DNA of 48,669 nt. It comes from Methanobacteriota archaeon. Its GTDB lineage: Archaea; Thermoplasmatota; Thermoplasmata; UBA10834. Both the position numbers and the translations under genes were made by a program. The stretch is taken from positions 108,993-157,661 of the forward strand of contig DYTN01000002.1 in NCBI GenBank assembly GCA_020725925.1. Reading direction: 5' to 3'. Of the stretch, positions 28,417-36,643 are shown in pieces (positions within the stretch are counted from its first letter, which is position 1; each line of letters begins with the position of its first letter). The notes beneath the pieces were generated by a model. That model did no database searches and had not been told where the DNA came from. It worked only from the letters and a program-made list of their open reading frames with translations.

Positions 28417-29091
28417 ATGACCAGGAAGACCACCGGTATTCCTGGCCTCGACGGCATGCTCCAGGGGGGTTTTCCCTTTCCATCGGCGATACTCGTCGCC
28501 GGCGAGCCCGGCACGGGCAAGACGACCCTTGCGGTCCAGAGTCTCTTCCACGGCGCGAGGGAGGGGGAGAAGGGGCTCTACATAACGGCCATATCTGAGC
28601 CGCAGTGGCTCGTGCAGAAGTTCCTGTCGTCCTTCTCGTTCTACAACCAGGAGATGGTCGAGAAGGGCGTTGTCAACTTCATAGACATAGGCCCCACGCT
28701 GATGAAGAACCCGAGCGACATGCTCAACATCATCAAGAAGAAGATCGAGCAGTACCAGCCGCTCAGGATAGCCATCGACCCCATCACGCCGATGACTGAC
28801 ATGCTCCAGTGGCGCGGGGAGACGAGGGAGTTCATGCACGAGCTCTTCGCCTACCTCAAGGCCTTCAACTGCCTCACGCTCGTGACCGCCGAGATGTCCT
28901 ACGACGACATATCGCACAGCCAGGAGTCCTACATGGTGGACGGAGTGGTCATGCTGTCCTACCCCGAGGAGGAGAAGGTCAGGCGGAAGTTCCTCGAGGT
29001 CCTCAAGATGAGGGGGACCAAGCACACCACGGGCAGGCAGCTCATCGACATAACGGACGAGGGACTCGCGGTACAGGCTGGCCTGAGGTAA
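28417..29091 (+). CDS. single-domain KaiC-type RecA-family ATPase
   Basis: A 224-residue RecA-fold protein of the archaeal KaiC-like group. It shows GIPGLDGMLQGGFPFPSAIL at residues 7-26, Walker A GEPGTGKTT (about 29-37), Walker B RIAIDPI, and the C-terminal EVLKMRGTKHTTGRQLIDIT motif shared by KaiC proteins. The usual glutamate pair after strand 2 reads ISEP instead, as in several archaeal relatives. Such proteins act in signalling and may oligomerise. It lies between the V4R and DUF835 genes and is probably the switch of that module. Confidence 0.9.
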   Translation: MTRKTTGIPGLDGMLQGGFPFPSAILVAGEPGTGKTTLAVQSLFHGAREGEKGLYITAISEPQWLVQKFLSSFSFYNQEMVEKGVVNFIDIGPTLMKNPSDMLNIIKKKIEQYQPLRIAIDPITPMTDMLQWRGETREFMHELFAYLKAFNCLTLVTAEMSYDDISHSQESYMVDGVVMLSYPEEEKVRRKFLEVLKMRGTKHTTGRQLIDITDEGLAVQAGLR

Positions 29092-29643: not shown

Positions 29644-30189
29644 TTGACGACTGTGATGTCCAAGGCTGAGGGCCTGGGGAAGGTCCATGTCATCACCGGT
29701 CCGGGCAAGGGCAAGACCTCCGCCGCCTTCGGGCTCGCCATGCGGGCCGCGGGGCATGGGCTCAGGGTCTGCATCGTGCAGTTCATGAAGACCGGGGAGA
29801 CCACAGGCGAGGTCATCTCGTCCCGGAAGCTCAGGAACATCAAGATCGCCCAGTTCGGGACCGGCAGGTTCGTCCCGCCGTCGAAGCCGTCCGAACAGGA
29901 CAGGCGTTGTGCATCGGAGGCCCTCGACCATGCGAAGCAGCTCCTGAGAGAGCGTTCGTGCGAGCTGCTAGTGCTCGACGAGGTGAGCGTTGCCGTAGAC
30001 TTCGGCCTCATTGGCGTTGACGAAGTGCTGGAGCTCCTCAGGAAGAGGCCTCAGGGGATCGAGTTCGTGCTCACGGGAAGGAACGCCCCGCGGGAGTTCA
30101 TCGACTGCGCGGACTACGTGTCATATATAGATGCGAAGAAGCATCCGTTCGACAGAGGGCTCAAGGCGAGGAAGGGCATCGAGTGGTAG
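29644..30189 (+). CDS. cobO: cob(I)yrinic acid a,c-diamide adenosyltransferase
   Basis: CobO/CobA/BtuR enzymes attach the adenosyl group of ATP to cobalt in cobalamin synthesis or salvage. The 181-residue product has the inverted P-loop region VITGPGKGKTSAAFG, then MKTGETTGE, Walker B LLVLDEVSVAVDFGL and the C-terminal LTGRNAPREFIDCADYVSYID. Start is TTG at 29644 after GGAG, with an ATG at 29656 as an alternative. A corrinoid cofactor matches the presence of the MttB-family methyltransferase in the window. Convergent with the winged-helix/ATPase gene, 3 bp apart. Confidence 0.92.
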   Translation: MTTVMSKAEGLGKVHVITGPGKGKTSAAFGLAMRAAGHGLRVCIVQFMKTGETTGEVISSRKLRNIKIAQFGTGRFVPPSKPSEQDRRCASEALDHAKQLLRERSCELLVLDEVSVAVDFGLIGVDEVLELLRKRPQGIEFVLTGRNAPREFIDCADYVSYIDAKKHPFDRGLKARKGIEW

Positions 30190-30192
30190 GGT

Positions 30193-31326
30193 CTATTGCG
30201 TCTTGTCCTTCAGGAAGAGCATGTACCGAATCTCCTCGGCGGAGAACAGGGTGTCCCCCCTGAGGCCCTTGACGTCGTTCTCCCTGAGCATCTTGAGGAC
30301 CTTCGGCTGGCCGTGGGTCATCATCATGATCCTCTTGAACGCGTCCTTCTCAATCCTGTCGTTGCCGAGCAGCCTCTTCGAGCTGTTCTCGTCCAGGCCC
30401 TTGATCTTCAGCTCCCGCACACGGCCCGAATCGACGTGCTTCTTCTGATAGAACCAGTTGTATGCGGGCGTCTCCTGCCTGGCCGTGACGATGATCTTCA
30501 CACCGTCAGCCAGCTCGACGATGGACGAGAAAAGCTCCACGACCTCGTCGGTCACGTTGAAGTAGTCGTCGAACACGATAAGGGCGTTGTTGAGCTTCAG
30601 CGCGTCGGCCAGTCCCTGGACCTGCTTCCTTATGGTCCTGCCGAACTCCACGATGCGGCTCTCCAGCGCCTTGGCCGTCACCTCGGGCGTCAACCGAAGC
30701 CAAAGCAGGTCCTCCTCGAGTTCGCCATCGACGAACTTGCGTGCGAGCGCGGTGGTGCCATACCCCTTGTTGCCCAAGATGACCAGCATCCCAGCATCGC
30801 CGTCCATGAACGACTCGATTGCATCGAGCTCGGAGTCCCTCCCGTAGAACGGCTCGGGAGAGGGCGCGTTTCTGAGGTCCTGCACGGGCGCCCGCCTAGC
30901 CTCGTTCAGGCGGACTACGCCGTCCTTCATCTGCGAAATGGCGGCGATCGCCCGCTTCTTGCCGACCGTCTTCTCGATGTCCCTGCCCACCATGGGCACG
31001 TCCGCACCGTCGACAACAACAGAGAAGAGAGAGTCCGACGCGCCCTGCCAAAGCTTCTCAGCGCCCTTGAGCCCCTCCGAGGTCACGGCGTAGACATTCA
31101 TCCGGCGCTCGTGCCCTCGGACCCTGCCCATCAGCTCGGCCACCAGCCCCTCCTTGATGAGACTCCTAACCGCGCGCGGGACGTGCGTGCGCGATATCCC
31201 GACGGCCAAAGCGATTCCGGCCTGCGTGCTGTCGGGGGCGTACTCCTCCGGGGCCATGTCCGTCGCGAACCTCGACAGGTGAAGTAGCACCCGGTCGTTG
31301 ACGCTGAGCTGGCCCTGGTCTGGCAT
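30193..31326 (-). CDS. winged-helix regulator fused to a STAND/AAA-like ATPase
   Basis: A 377-residue protein. An N-terminal winged helix (about 1-90) includes AGIALAVGISRTHVPRAVRSL as recognition region (two parts of at most 20 residues: AGIALAVGIS, RTHVPRAVRSL). An ATPase module follows, FYGRDSELDAIESF then a P-loop-like LGNKGYGTT (184-192). The invariant Lys is Thr191, so ATP hydrolysis may be lost or altered. Walker B FDDYF (252-256) and sensor-like IIVTARQ remain. It is leaderless (TATA 31350-31357), with an inverted repeat over its own start codon that suggests autoregulation. It diverges from the giant surface protein gene and probably controls it. Confidence 0.8.
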   Translation of the reverse strand: MPDQGQLSVNDRVLLHLSRFATDMAPEEYAPDSTQAGIALAVGISRTHVPRAVRSLIKEGLVAELMGRVRGHERRMNVYAVTSEGLKGAEKLWQGASDSLFSVVVDGADVPMVGRDIEKTVGKKRAIAAISQMKDGVVRLNEARRAPVQDLRNAPSPEPFYGRDSELDAIESFMDGDAGMLVILGNKGYGTTALARKFVDGELEEDLLWLRLTPEVTAKALESRIVEFGRTIRKQVQGLADALKLNNALIVFDDYFNVTDEVVELFSSIVELADGVKIIVTARQETPAYNWFYQKKHVDSGRVRELKIKGLDENSSKRLLGNDRIEKDAFKRIMMMTHGQPKVLKMLRENDVKGLRGDTLFSAEEIRYMLFLKDKTQ

Positions 31327-31357
31327 CGACTCTTATGATGCCACTGTGCTTATATAA
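31321..31357 (-). promoter_or_regulatory. TATA box and start-codon inverted repeat of the regulator gene
   Basis: TGGCATC (31321-31327) and GATGCCA (31337-31343) form a perfect inverted repeat spanning the start codon and predicted transcript start, next to the TATA box TTATATAA (31350-31357). A degenerate second copy, TGGCGTC...GACGTGCC, lies at 31370-31394 between the two promoters. Confidence 0.55.
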
Positions 31358-31422
31358 CCGTGCTGGTTTTGGCGTCATCAGAATCCGACGTGCCGAGGTC
31401 CGTCTGGTAGTTGGTATTGACC

Positions 31423-31454
31423 TCAACATGTTTATATACGGTCCAACACGTTGA
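31423..31454 (+). promoter_or_regulatory. inverted repeat flanking the TATA box of the surface protein gene
   Basis: TCAACATGTT (31423-31432) and AACACGTTGA (31445-31454) match as inverted arms at 9 of 10 positions, with the TATA box TTTATATA (31431-31438) overlapping the left arm. Binding would occlude TBP, so this is a likely repressor operator. Confidence 0.6.
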
Positions 31455-31501
31455 ATCGCCAGAAATCAGAGAGTTCTCTCTCCCCCCGGAGGACCGATAT
31501 C

Positions 31502-34500
31502 ATGGGTTTGGAGTCTAGGAAGCTTTGGAAGGACGAGGGCGGTGTGTCCGAAGTCGTCGGCAACATACTGATCCTCATGATAACCGTCATCCTGTTCAGC
31601 AGCATCATCGCGTTCGTCGGCAGCATGCCCGTGCCCGAGCAGGCGACCAAGGCCGACTTCTCGGCGAGCATATCGTTCTGGGAAAACGGCGCGAAGGCCA
31701 ACCTCACCGTGACGAAGGCCGGAGGCGCCATCATGGACGCCGAGGACACAATGATCATAGTCGATGTGGACGACGTCAACGAGGGGTACGACCTCGGCAC
31801 GGATGAGGGGCTCGGGGGAGCAGACCAGTGGAAGACGGGCATGTCCTGGACCAAGACCCTGACAGGCACGACTTACACCAGCACGGTGGTCGTGACCGTC
31901 ATTGACCTCGTGAAGCACGCCTCCGTGTGGACGAGCCAGGTCACCGGAGGCACGGGAGGCAACCCGCCGAGCATACTGCAGAGGTATGCAGACAGCGACC
32001 GGAACACCTCGACGGCCGACCCCGTCAGGGAGTGGGACGACTTCAGCCTCTTCGTGACCATCGTGGACCCCGACAACGACCTCAACACGACCGACGGGAT
32101 TTGGATAGACTCGTCTCAGGTCGAGGGTGCGAGCTACACTCACAGGTTGCCCGCGGCCGACAGCCCGGGCGGAGGCGTCTACCGGTGGGACTTCAACGAC
32201 ATACAGACCAGGGACCTCAGCGCCGAGGACCTGGACGGCGGGGTAATAATGATACATGCATGGGACTCCGCGGGCCACAAGGCGATCTCGTCCTTCGTGC
32301 TCACTATCACCCAGCTCCCGGTCCAGGAGATCCCGGTTTCGGAGGAGGACGAGATCGTATACACTGGCGACAGCAACCTGCCCTCGTACATCCGCTGGTT
32401 CTTCGCCAACCAGGGCTTCGGGGTGTTCCCGGAGAGGTACATCAACGGGAGCGAGACCGGCAGGCCAGAGACCTCTACCATATCGACGCACTTCGACAAG
32501 GACCATCTGGTGTTCGTCAGGTTCGCGAGCAAGGTCATGGACAACGTCGCCGTGCAGAACGACCTTACCCTCACGGACATCAGGACGGGCGTCGAGCGTC
32601 TGCCCGCGTTCAATGAGTCCGCAGGCAGCACGGCTGCGAACCCGTTCTACTCGATCCCGTCGGGCGGCGGCATCTACCTGTTCGAGGCCCAGTTCAACAC
32701 GAGCACCCTGCCCCCGGGCGCGTACGGGATGGAGATCACCCTCAAGAACAACCCGACCCCACCCAACACCCAGGCAGTGTACACAGGCTCCATCACGTTG
32801 TTCGTCAGCGCGGTCGGCTCGCCGATCACGGATGAGTTCTTCCCCGAGATCGAGCTGTACAAGGACCAGGCGCTCACCACTGTGTGGGGCGAAAGGACAA
32901 CGCCATTCGAGATATCCTCCTCTGACAGCTTCAGGGCCTGGGTCGCCATCCGAGTGCTCGACACTGAGACCGCCAGCCCGCCACCTGTGAGCGTGGCCGA
33001 GATCAGGATAAGCGACGGGTCAGGCGCCGCGGAACTCTATGGCGTGCCGCCCGCTGGCAGCATGATGTCCCGCATATGGAGGTACGACCCGGAGTACTAC
33101 AACTTCAGCATCGACCTCAGACTGAACAACGGGGTCCAGTGGAGAGCCGGCACGAACTCGTACACAATCGAGATCTCGAAGTTCAACGACACGAACGAAG
33201 GCATCTACTCCCTGTCCCACCAGATATTCGTCAAGGGCGCGGGCGCGAGGGCGGACTTCCTCGTCGGCACGACGGGCATGGCCGGCGGCCAGAGCAACTT
33301 CAACTCGAGGGAGTACCTGTACCACATACAGAACAACCTTCTGTTCAGCACAAGGATCATGTGGCTCTATGAGGCGACCCCCAGCGCCAACAACGACTAC
33401 ACCGTCACGGCCCTTGGCGTGGGCGACCTGGACGGCGACGGCGACAGGGATGTCCTGATGGGCCAGGGTTCGAGCAACTACCTGTACTACTTCGAGAACA
33501 CGCTCAACACGTTCGGCATATGGCAGTCAGGAAGCCAGGTATCCCGGCCCGAGGGGTACGCCTCCAGGGTCAGCTGGATCACCTTCGGCGATGTGAACGG
33601 CGACGGGGACCAGGACTTCGCGTGGTCTAGCTCGGCCGGCCAGGTAGTGATATACAACACGACCTACGGCTCGACCGGCTGGATATACACTCCGCCGGCC
33701 ACCAAGGGCTGGTCCACGCCAGTCGCCAAGATCGCCCTCGAGGACATGACCGGTGACGGGCGCGCGGACCTCGTCGTTTTGGGCGGCGGGGACATAAGCG
33801 TGTACGACCTGAAGTACGCGTACGACCCGCTACTCGCATCTCAGAGGTTGGCCAAGGAGCGCGTCACACTCTCGACCGGCGCGACTGTCGACTTCGACAT
33901 CGAGGACATGAACAATGACGGCAGGAAAGACATCCTGACCGCCGACACCACAGCTGCCTTCGCAGGCGGCGTGAACGGCGTCAATGTGAACGAATACTCA
34001 ACGGTCGCTGGCACGAAGAAGACGCTTGACGCTGCGGCCGCCGGATACAACCCGCAGATGCTGGCAGGTGACGACACCCTTGGGAGCGTCAGCAACACCT
34101 ATGCGGTGGAGGGGGCTTACATAGAGTTCTCCGAGAACGGCACAGGCGGCGACAGCCCGATAGGCGCCGTGGTGGCGACCATGAAATTCCTGACTCTGAC
34201 TAACAGCCCCGACCAGGAACTGCGGGTCTACGCCAGGCTGGGTACTGCCGGCTCTGGGACCCCTGAGAGCTTCTATGTCTGGTACTCAATCGACGGGATC
34301 TACTTCACGCCGATCATGACCGTGTACTCCGAGAGCTGGGCGTACTACAACTACTCGCTTCCGGCCAGCGTGGCGAGCAAGGCCATATACCTGCGGTTCA
34401 CGGACGCCTACAACACCGCGGACAGCGGGGCGGTGAGGGACTGGATACAGGTCGACATGGCGGCCATCTTCACTGACACGTTTGGAGGCTACGCAGGCAA

Positions 34501-35032
34501 GCCTGTCGTCGCGGGCACCACCTGGAAGGTCGTGAGGGCGGCCGCGATAGACGGCCCGTTCAGCGGCACGAACCAGTACCACGAGGTTGTCGTGGCGAAG
34601 CACCACGACACTGTGTCCACGAACTCCCTCTGGAAGGTCTACAGGAATGTCGCGTCCACCTGGGTGCCCCTGACGGGTGAGCTCGCGGGCAGCACGTCGT
34701 TCTATGTGTCCTCGGCCTCGAAGGTCACGAGCGGGTGGTACGGCAACGACGATGGTGACATGCTAGACGCCAATGATGTCGCCCCGACGATCTTCGATGC
34801 TGTTGACATCAACGGCGACGGGTACACGGACATCTTCACCGTCAACTACACCACCACTGGTGCCAACGACCCGAAGGTGTCCAAGATAGGGTTCTACATG
34901 AACCTGTGGAGCGGGACGGGCATGTACTGGCGGTACTTCCATGTGAAGACCTGGACCATCGACGCCCCGAGCGGCTCGGCGAAGGACCCGTGGGTGTGCA
35001 TCCTCTCAGTGATCAACCTGACGGTGGCCTAG
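31502..35032 (+). CDS. giant type IV pilin-like surface protein with FG-GAP/VCBS beta-propeller repeats
   Basis: About 1,176 residues. The N-terminus is a class III (type IV pilin-like) signal: KLWKDEGG, then SEVVGNILILMITVILF, cut before the hydrophobic helix as in archaeal pilins. Beta-rich extracellular domains follow (about 40-620). Then FG-GAP/VCBS repeats with calcium-binding DxDxDG loops: GDLDGDGDRD (about 640), GDVNGDGDQD (695), EDMTGDGRAD (745), EDMNNDGRKD (799) and VDINGDGYTD (1098), with a beta-sandwich between the last two. I start at the ATG at 31502 after GGAGGA. No C-terminal anchor is visible. It is probably an adhesin or pilus tip protein, controlled by the divergent regulator. 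Confidence 0.85.
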   Translation: MGLESRKLWKDEGGVSEVVGNILILMITVILFSSIIAFVGSMPVPEQATKADFSASISFWENGAKANLTVTKAGGAIMDAEDTMIIVDVDDVNEGYDLGTDEGLGGADQWKTGMSWTKTLTGTTYTSTVVVTVIDLVKHASVWTSQVTGGTGGNPPSILQRYADSDRNTSTADPVREWDDFSLFVTIVDPDNDLNTTDGIWIDSSQVEGASYTHRLPAADSPGGGVYRWDFNDIQTRDLSAEDLDGGVIMIHAWDSAGHKAISSFVLTITQLPVQEIPVSEEDEIVYTGDSNLPSYIRWFFANQGFGVFPERYINGSETGRPETSTISTHFDKDHLVFVRFASKVMDNVAVQNDLTLTDIRTGVERLPAFNESAGSTAANPFYSIPSGGGIYLFEAQFNTSTLPPGAYGMEITLKNNPTPPNTQAVYTGSITLFVSAVGSPITDEFFPEIELYKDQALTTVWGERTTPFEISSSDSFRAWVAIRVLDTETASPPPVSVAEIRISDGSGAAELYGVPPAGSMMSRIWRYDPEYYNFSIDLRLNNGVQWRAGTNSYTIEISKFNDTNEGIYSLSHQIFVKGAGARADFLVGTTGMAGGQSNFNSREYLYHIQNNLLFSTRIMWLYEATPSANNDYTVTALGVGDLDGDGDRDVLMGQGSSNYLYYFENTLNTFGIWQSGSQVSRPEGYASRVSWITFGDVNGDGDQDFAWSSSAGQVVIYNTTYGSTGWIYTPPATKGWSTPVAKIALEDMTGDGRADLVVLGGGDISVYDLKYAYDPLLASQRLAKERVTLSTGATVDFDIEDMNNDGRKDILTADTTAAFAGGVNGVNVNEYSTVAGTKKTLDAAAAGYNPQMLAGDDTLGSVSNTYAVEGAYIEFSENGTGGDSPIGAVVATMKFLTLTNSPDQELRVYARLGTAGSGTPESFYVWYSIDGIYFTPIMTVYSESWAYYNYSLPASVASKAIYLRFTDAYNTADSGAVRDWIQVDMAAIFTDTFGGYAGKPVVAGTTWKVVRAAAIDGPFSGTNQYHEVVVAKHHDTVSTNSLWKVYRNVASTWVPLTGELAGSTSFYVSSASKVTSGWYGNDDGDMLDANDVAPTIFDAVDINGDGYTDIFTVNYTTTGANDPKVSKIGFYMNLWSGTGMYWRYFHVKTWTIDAPSGSAKDPWVCILSVINLTVA

Positions 35033-35057: not shown

Positions 35058-35687
35058 CTACCCTTCTTTTGAGCTCCTCAGCAGCCTCGCCACATCGGCC
35101 GACCGCTCGAGCTCTATGACCGCGAGAAGCGACTTCGCGCCGTCGCACGCCCTCTCGATGCCCTTCGCCATCGCCTGGGCGCGCCTGGCCTCTATCATCC
35201 CGAACCCCTCGAGGCTGTTCACTGTCCTGTCCCAGGCAAGGACGAACTCCTCGGCGCTCCTGTCGCTGAACCTTCTCCTTTTCATGAGCCAGGTCCTCGT
35301 GGAGTGCCTGAACAGGGTGGTGCCGGGCACTGCAGCGCAGTATAGTTCCGAGTAGGCGTCCTCGTCCATGTCGACCGGCACGAGCCTGATGCCCGCGTGG
35401 TCGGCGAGCTCGACGGCAGCCACATAGCACGGCGGAGGGGCGGCCACCTCGCCGAACCTGCTGAGCCCCTCCGCATATATCTCCTCGTACCTGGACAGCT
35501 CTGGCTCGAAATCCTCAGGGAGGTTCCTGAGGCCTTCCAACTCCTCCTTGGAGATGGATACGGCGACGCCGTCCGGCCTGATCTTCTCGAAAGCTTCCCG
35601 CACCTTCTCGGCCTCGGATTTCAGGCCCTTGATGACGCCGAGGAGGTGTACCGTGCATCCTCGGGCCTTGATTGTCTCCAAGGTCAA
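35058..35687 (-). CDS. TraB/PrgY-like protein (tentative)
   Basis: A 209-residue soluble protein that starts CTVHLLGVIKGLKSEAEKVR and continues IRPDGVAVSISKEEL, the layout of TraB/PrgY proteins (usually ...LIGTAHVS...VRPDVVAVEL). The usual His in the first motif is absent here (GVIKG), so if related it has lost the proposed catalytic residue. The C-terminal half is helical and rich in Arg and Ala. Its ATG overlaps the stop of the XRE-type regulator gene by 4 bp, so the two are translated together. Family call is weak. Confidence 0.45.
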   Translation of the reverse strand: MTLETIKARGCTVHLLGVIKGLKSEAEKVREAFEKIRPDGVAVSISKEELEGLRNLPEDFEPELSRYEEIYAEGLSRFGEVAAPPPCYVAAVELADHAGIRLVPVDMDEDAYSELYCAAVPGTTLFRHSTRTWLMKRRRFSDRSAEEFVLAWDRTVNSLEGFGMIEARRAQAMAKGIERACDGAKSLLAVIELERSADVARLLRSSKEG

Positions 35688-36643
35688 GTCTTCCTCCTCT
35701 TCTCTCGCTGGAGGATTAGCTCCAGCACATCGTCCGCATCATCCGCTCTTCGCAGCTCGTCCCTCGTGATCAGCGGCGTGCCCTCGATGGCCTCGACTGA
35801 GGTCTCCTTCTGGACGAAGATGACCGACTTGCGCTCGGTCACCCTTGATATGTTGCCCACGACCCTCGCCTTCCTTGCGGTCATCCGGGGGTCTTCCTCG
35901 ACGCCAGTCAGGAGAAGCAGGTCCCTCTCGCTCGCGAGGGCGTCGAACGGGCACCTGATGGTGGGCGTCACCGAATATCCGATCTCCCTCAGCATCTCGA
36001 ACACGTCCCTGTTCAGGCCCTTGAACTCGTCGAAGGACTTGAGCGTCCTGGCGACCTCGGAAGTGTACGAGAAGGGGTTCAAAGGGACGACGATGGGTTC
36101 GTTGAGGAACTGCTCGAGCCTGGCCGCGATGTCGATCATCGCGCCCATGCCGCTCTCGTACATCTGGATGGCCTTCCTCGACACGCCGGCTATCTCCGCG
36201 AGCATCCCCAGGGAGATGTTCCTCTCCTCTCGGACGCGCCTTATGAGCTCGCCGTCCAGCCTCACGTACAGCCCGCCTGGGGCGGCGTAGACGAACGGGG
36301 GCACGCCCTCCAGAATGTGCTCGTGGAATGTGCTCTCTGAGATGATCGGTATGCCGAACCTCGAGTACAGTATGCCGTCCTCGAGCTTGCCAGCGCCCGA
36401 GTGCAGGCCGATAACCATCGGGCTGCCGTTGAGCGTCGTCGCGAGTATCCTGAGCTCCTCCGCGTCCTCCGGGGACAGGGAGTCTATGTTGGACAGCGCC
36501 TTGATGATCAGCAGCTGCTTGTCCCTGCGCGCGATGATGTCGAAGCTTATGCTCCTGATGCTGTGAGGGTCGGAGATGAAGAACCCTGATTTTGCCAGCT
36601 TTTCCCTGAGGTGCGTGAGCAGCTCTTCCCTCTTTCCTGTCAT
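35684..36643 (-). CDS. archaeal HTH (XRE-type) transcriptional regulator
   Basis: A 319-residue protein of the conserved archaeal family of putative HTH-type regulators (HAMAP MF_00584 type). The N-terminal domain resembles a nuclease-like fold (SISFDIIARRDKQLLIIKAL), and a central helix-turn-helix lies at about 129-180 (IRRVREERNISLGMLAEIAG, VSRKAIQMYESG). The C-terminal domain includes GYSVTPTIRCPFDALA and repeats the restriction-like pattern. Function is not known beyond DNA binding. Located between cdc48 (64 bp upstream) and the TraB-like gene, which it overlaps. Confidence 0.85.
   Translation of the reverse strand: MTGKREELLTHLREKLAKSGFFISDPHSIRSISFDIIARRDKQLLIIKALSNIDSLSPEDAEELRILATTLNGSPMVIGLHSGAGKLEDGILYSRFGIPIISESTFHEHILEGVPPFVYAAPGGLYVRLDGELIRRVREERNISLGMLAEIAGVSRKAIQMYESGMGAMIDIAARLEQFLNEPIVVPLNPFSYTSEVARTLKSFDEFKGLNRDVFEMLREIGYSVTPTIRCPFDALASERDLLLLTGVEEDPRMTARKARVVGNISRVTERKSVIFVQKETSVEAIEGTPLITRDELRRADDADDVLELILQREKRRKT

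Follow-up and report, generated by a model that had tools for sequence, protein, structure and literature searches.

In the window (the whole stretch of archaeal DNA analysed here, 48,669 nucleotides), the gene of a giant pilin-like surface protein lies back to back with that of a putative DNA-binding regulator. The locus raises the question of whether the second protein controls the first, and if so, through which DNA element and in which direction. Regulation of archaeal type IV pilins other than the archaellum is little known (PMC4858521). The initial annotation of this DNA proposed a self-contained, switchable adhesion system with inverted repeats at both promoters; its observations are partly confirmed by the present analysis and its interpretation is partly supported. 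Families, genomes and loci are referred to by f, G and L numbers.

The giant pilin-like surface protein

The giant protein (1,176 aa) is encoded at 31502..35032 on the forward strand. ATG 31502 was taken as its start codon because it is preceded by GGAGG (31488-31492), and TTG 31451, which lies about 12 bp past the TATA box, was rejected. The protein is laid out as a class III (Pilin_N) N-terminus, a beta-sandwich region and an FG-GAP propeller-like region with an inserted beta stretch. Pilin_N (PF07790) matches residues 14-90 with 51.6 bits, against a curated Pfam cut-off of 25.2, which marks this part as an archaeal type IV pilin domain, and residues 7-134 match the Pilin_N protein of PDB entry 8fj5 (E 2.8e-5). 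From about residue 642, the FG-GAP families PF13517 and PF01839 score 58.4 and 45.1 bits, above their curated Pfam cut-offs, and five DxDxDGxxD calcium loops are found at residues 642, 697, 748, 802 and 1102, as is typical of FG-GAP beta-propeller proteins. The union of a pilin N-terminus with FG-GAP calcium repeats in a protein of ~1,180 residues, as described in the initial annotation, is thus borne out, and both Pilin_N and FG-GAP_3 are present in 18/18 homologues scanned. The accompanying claim that such proteins are rare does not hold, as 137 of 300 sampled genomes of the class have matches at E 1e-10, many of them to the N-terminal part only.

The giant shares the N-terminal class III signal and helix with archaeal type IV pilins (e.g., PDB 8fj5, 145 aa), but these have 150-200 residues, whereas the giant has ~1,180, with the FG-GAP region added. 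With propellers of the integrin-alpha and Psathyrella lectin type it has in common the FG-GAP calcium loops. The structure prediction proposed in the initial annotation was run with AF2, and integrin alpha headpieces are among the Foldseek matches of the model, as is the Psathyrella lectin propeller 2bwm. The confidence of this model is moderate (mean pLDDT 69.5); as to a closed seven-bladed propeller, the best propeller-lectin match obtained with it has a TMt of 0.59 at 7.2 A. Unlike in those propellers, the loops of the giant are interrupted, since an inserted stretch of ~300 residues, mostly beta by prediction, separates the fourth from the fifth.

The pilus platform family PF00482 is present in 32/32 giant-bearing genomes, and T2SSE-family ATPases, the family of the assembly ATPases, are present in the genome of the window. 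Therefore, the giant could belong to a filament as a minor or tip subunit; alternatively, it may be anchored at the surface by its pilin helix. The idea of giant pilins in genomes devoid of pilus machinery, the helix being a mere anchor, is unsupported in view of the 32/32 count, although the presence of PF00482 does not prove assembly. A role in adhesion is suggested by the domains of the protein. Even longer giant pilin-like ORFs (~1,800-2,600 aa) occur in tandem at L230, L233, L236 and L237 (G030, G041, G058 and G111), where the second gene directly follows the first and has no promoter of its own. In the genome of the window, two small pilins (187 aa) adjoin KaiC-like genes at L250:7175-8478, on the same contig and ~50 kb from the giant.

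The putative divergent regulator

The regulator (377 aa) is encoded divergently to the giant, at 30193..31326 on the reverse strand, and was characterized by profile comparison, fold comparison and inspection of its Walker A motif. It comprises a winged helix (about residues 9-81) and a STAND-like NTPase domain (about residues 155-375). Its Pfam scores are all below the curated cut-offs. Its profile matches STAND proteins in the PDB, namely PH0952 (E 2.7e-14) and MalT (E 0.0018), and its model (mean pLDDT 88.5) has CED-4 as the closest fold, which together identify a P-loop domain of the STAND type. The description as a winged-helix/ATPase regulator is therefore correct as to the winged helix and the P-loop domain, but not as to the catalytic motif: another residue stands in place of the Walker A lysine in the window regulator (GNKGYGTT), and an intact GxxGxGK[ST] is absent from the regulator throughout the window's order (21/21 genomes; GYGTT, GYGAT, GFGAS, etc.). 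Therefore, the "ATPase" is better called a STAND-like domain, and in this order it probably does not hydrolyse ATP normally. The lysine is also replaced in f20, f32, f12 and the f7 proteins read, and it is intact in the regulators of f15, f19, f23, f24 and f27.

The NTPase domain is shared by profile with STAND regulators and sensors such as MalT and PH0952, and by fold with CED-4. The regulator differs from them in its N-terminal DNA-binding domain, in the Walker A lysine lost in this order, and in the absence of the C-terminal superstructure-forming repeat (sensor) region of STAND NTPases, as the 377-aa protein ends after the NTPase and a helical part. It is also unlike the TrmB family, since PF01978 scores 15.8 bits against a cut-off of 25.6 and the NTPase domain follows the winged helix. 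Among 293 sampled genomes of the phylum, the short (~370-aa) form was found in none outside the class at E 1e-30; the matches outside the class in this sample sit in longer ORFs of 541-955 aa.

Conservation of the gene pair

In the window's order, 21/21 genomes have the regulator and giant genes side by side in divergent orientation, separated by 173-212 bp, and further divergent pairs were read in 32 genomes among 300 sampled over the class Thermoplasmata. Homologous pairs thus stay together in relatives, a check that the initial annotation proposed, and its refuting case, in which the two genes never co-occur, does not apply. Paired genes were found in nine families in all (f1, f2, f15, f19, f20, f23, f24, f27 and f32), and the gap is at most 267 bp in all but G170, G182 and G119, in which 1-1.9 kb is inserted between the genes. 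In f7, close regulators adjoin a GNAT-like gene instead, with no pilin there.

The commonest gene order is cobA-regulator-giant-d1-hth. In the window, the left neighbour conserved by synteny is the corrinoid adenosyltransferase gene cobA/btuR (29644..30189, forward strand; PF02572, 200.8 bits), which marks the corresponding places in genomes without the regulator. On the right are d1 (35058..35687, reverse strand), which has no assigned function and was recognized by synteny across the class, and the gene of an HTH_3 regulator-like protein (35684..36643, reverse strand; PF01381, 37.4 bits; synteny). The cobA, d1 and HTH_3 genes are kept beside the regulator and the giant over many families, and a kaiC-like gene (28417-29091 in the window) within the order.

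Candidate control elements between the two genes

Two inverted repeats had been assigned to the two promoters in the initial annotation, and only one of them proved to be conserved in part. This is GGCATC-N9-GATGCC over the regulator start (31322..31342), which keeps 71% of its pairing in the order, compared with 7-43% for slid controls, with 6/6 pairs in 5/21 genomes only. One of its arms partly coincides with the start codon and a proline codon, and its letters differ from those of the pilin-side site. With this partial conservation it was rejected as the main operator and kept as an element that could serve autoregulation. The second repeat, on either side of the giant gene's TATA box (31424..31453), keeps 55% of its pairing over the order, compared with 9-38% for slid controls. 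Its upstream part consists of the BRE-position bases and the TATA box, and its downstream arm, CAACACGTTG, taken as a palindrome, reaches 41% pairing, hardly above slid controls. This repeat was dropped as an operator because the downstream arm is not conserved across the order.

The conserved element is another one, which had been overlooked: the operator-like palindrome GGTANNKACC, found by aligning the intergenic regions of the paired genes. In the window it reads GGTATTGACC (31413..31422, forward strand). It is preceded by an upstream half-site, GGTAGTT (31406..31412, forward strand), conserved in the alignment of the order, and is followed by an 8-bp spacer at the BRE position, TCAACATG (31423..31430, forward strand), and by the TATA box of the giant gene, TTTATATA (31431..31438, forward strand). 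The TATA box of the regulator gene, TTATATAA, lies at 31350..31357 on the reverse strand. The GGTA and ACC of the palindrome are invariant in 21/21 genomes of the order. Over the class, 53/53 paired promoters have scores of 12 or more out of 13 for GGTNNNNACC-N8-TATA, which 0.05% of dinucleotide shuffles reach, and 50/53 carry the perfect element at a spacing of exactly 8, with none at spacings of 4-7 and 9-13. Where 1-1.9 kb parts the two genes (G170, G182 and G119), the palindrome stays on the pilin side.

Together with a TATA box, the palindrome occurs once in the 2.0-Mb genome of the window. A pattern search in 300 genomes of the class gave 86 matches in 69 genomes, compared with 11 for the reversed control pattern, and ~72 of the 86 precede giant pilins, some assigned by reading the downstream gene and the rest by coordinates. 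These include giant pilins unlinked to a regulator gene, in f7 (G037 and G055) and f14 (G157, G032 and G173). The remaining matches lie before Sec-type surface proteins (f14, f16 and f25) or resemble chance matches (G141 and the helicase-like gene of L148). The loci before mostly Sec-type secreted or surface proteins are L145-L151 (G034 and G044, of f16), L154 and L155 (f14), and L160 and L161 (f25), and the regulon may therefore be broader in these families. The system is consequently not "self-contained", since the regulator is unlinked in other families and the site marks remote giant pilins and some other surface-protein genes; that the surface protein is regulated is supported.

The constant distance to the TATA box would also be expected if the two genes were chance neighbours and the palindrome an extended, BRE-like core-promoter feature of strong Thermoplasmata promoters, with no part in regulation. 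The single copy with a TATA box in the 2.0-Mb genome of the window led to the rejection of a general core-promoter element, and the palindrome is absent at the giant pilins of regulator-negative genomes, so that this explanation appears highly improbable.

A second palindrome, TGATTNTCA, was observed in several families some tens of bp upstream of GGTANNKACC, at L077, L079, L083, L094-L097 and other f19 and f23 promoters, and TGATTATCA also occurs close to the TATA boxes of the giants of G222 (L212 and L213), a genome without the regulator. These sequences possibly bind a second factor.

Joint presence and loss of regulator and site

Of 45 named loci of the regulator, 33 have a pilin next to it and 12, two of which are cut by contig ends, have none; the site lies at 33/33 of the former and at 0/12 of the latter. 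The conserved neighbourhood reveals losses on both sides. Nine f20 genomes from three genera (G054, G083, G171, G191, G219 and G258; G155 and G276; G222) have cobA directly followed by the giant and lack both the regulator and the site. A closer query for the regulator found in eight of these nine genomes a ~900-aa paralogue alone, and nothing in the ninth. G199 and G279, of the same family f20, retain both regulator and site. The reverse loss is seen at L191 (Methanomassiliicoccus sp. DR5_59_6), where hth, d1, regulator and cobA are kept, and there is neither a giant between d1 and the regulator nor a site. On the tree of giants, with presence of regulator and site labelled by hand, the site changes with the regulator in 4/4 independent contrasts, or in 3/4 if G225 is taken as having a site but no regulator; 3-4 contrasts are too few for significance (p 0.125-0.25).

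It could be argued that some other conserved factor binds GGTANNKACC and that the regulator has other targets, perhaps its own gene alone, via the start-codon repeat. The site is also found before unlinked pilins and Sec-type surface genes, as would fit this proposal, and in G225, whose assembly is 96% complete, a giant with a one-mismatch site, GATAATTACC, occurs without a regulator orthologue. Such a separate factor is nevertheless improbable in view of the co-loss within conserved synteny, the reverse loss at L191, the 33/33 against 0/12 distribution and the correspondence between recognition helix and site described below. G225 shares a genus of f30 with G163, which has a regulator and no giant match; the difference between these two genomes reflects either missing assembly or a real reciprocal loss.

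Recognition helix and site

All paired regulators carry R-[ST]-H in the recognition helix, and their sites are mostly of the GGTAA type. In f12 and f17, the regulators have L-T-H and the pilin promoters carry GGTTATAACC or GATTATAACC at an unchanged spacing. In the f7 and f4 regulators, S replaces P in the next turn, and most sites retain only the AAATTACC part. There are exceptions, as f4 also has LTH with another site, f2 has R with GGTAC, two f7 genomes have the full site, and the f14 regulators (VTH) accompany sites with a variable centre. Helix and site vary together between some families, a suggestive correspondence that is neither strict nor one-to-one. It offers a natural series in which the joint change of a winged helix and its operator could be read.

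Activation or repression

Known archaeal activators sit just upstream of the BRE and TATA box and recruit TBP or TFB, and repressors bind over these elements or downstream of them (PMC4158304; PMC5512572). The palindrome lies upstream of the BRE and TATA box at a fixed position (50/53 at spacing 8), where an archaeal activator would be expected. A comparable case is EarA, which activates the archaellum operon in Methanococcus and Pyrococcus through sites in the corresponding position, upstream of the BRE (PMC5512572). The likeness concerns the position of the site, and it is incomplete, as EarA sites are repeated 6-bp boxes (TACATA-type), whereas here there is one 10-bp palindrome at exact spacing. 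Members of the TrmB family (TrmBL1 and Tgr) also act on palindromes, activating from upstream of the BRE/TATA (PMC4158304), and the site in the window is similarly placed.

The palindrome ends 8 bp before the TATA box, close enough for a bound protein to block TFB near the BRE, and the regulator could thus be a repressor that excludes TFB and TBP until it is released by a signal. A protein that acts by blocking would be expected to allow several spacings, and only the one was seen; sites that are one-sided and exactly spaced argue for contact activation. Joint loss of site and regulator fits activator and repressor alike. Repression at this site is considered unlikely.

Proposed mechanism and significance

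The best explanation, to which we give a probability of about two in three, is that the regulator is a one-component transcription factor that binds GGTANNKACC in the giant promoter, 8 bp ahead of the TATA box, and most likely activates the transcription of a giant surface or pilus adhesin. The state of the STAND-like domain, in response to a presumed signal, would gate this activation. As the Walker A lysine is absent in the window's order, switching there would probably proceed without normal ATP hydrolysis, through the binding of a ligand or nucleotide or through contact with a partner, and a regulatory STAND-like domain would apparently work without its catalytic lysine. The giant would be exported via the type IV pilin route and act as a large calcium-stabilized adhesin at the cell surface; it would either be a minor or tip component of a type IV filament or sit in the membrane, held there by its pilin helix. 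Presence and absence of the palindrome follow those of a putative DNA-binding protein whose gene usually lies beside it, and the arrangement therefore looks like a conserved adhesin switch.

A broader proposal, which we hold as tentative and put somewhat below even odds, is that archaeal surface adhesins share a regulatory code across the class. Short winged-helix/STAND regulators, with the Walker A lysine lost in several lineages, would read a 10-bp palindrome that lies 8 bp ahead of the TATA box in giant-pilin promoters, helix and operator having co-evolved by family into GGTAATTACC, GGTTATAACC and AAATTACC types.

The kinds of components are all known, namely Pilin_N, FG-GAP, winged helix, STAND-like domain and a BRE-upstream activator site. 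In the open-licence literature, no prior description was found of their combination, of the exact site, of its class-wide conservation or of the paired losses, nor any report of FG-GAP pilins in archaea. The locus provides a predicted regulator, an exact DNA site and a target, conserved through much of a mostly uncultured class and with natural losses on both sides, and the control of archaeal surface adhesion thereby becomes testable with one protein and one promoter.
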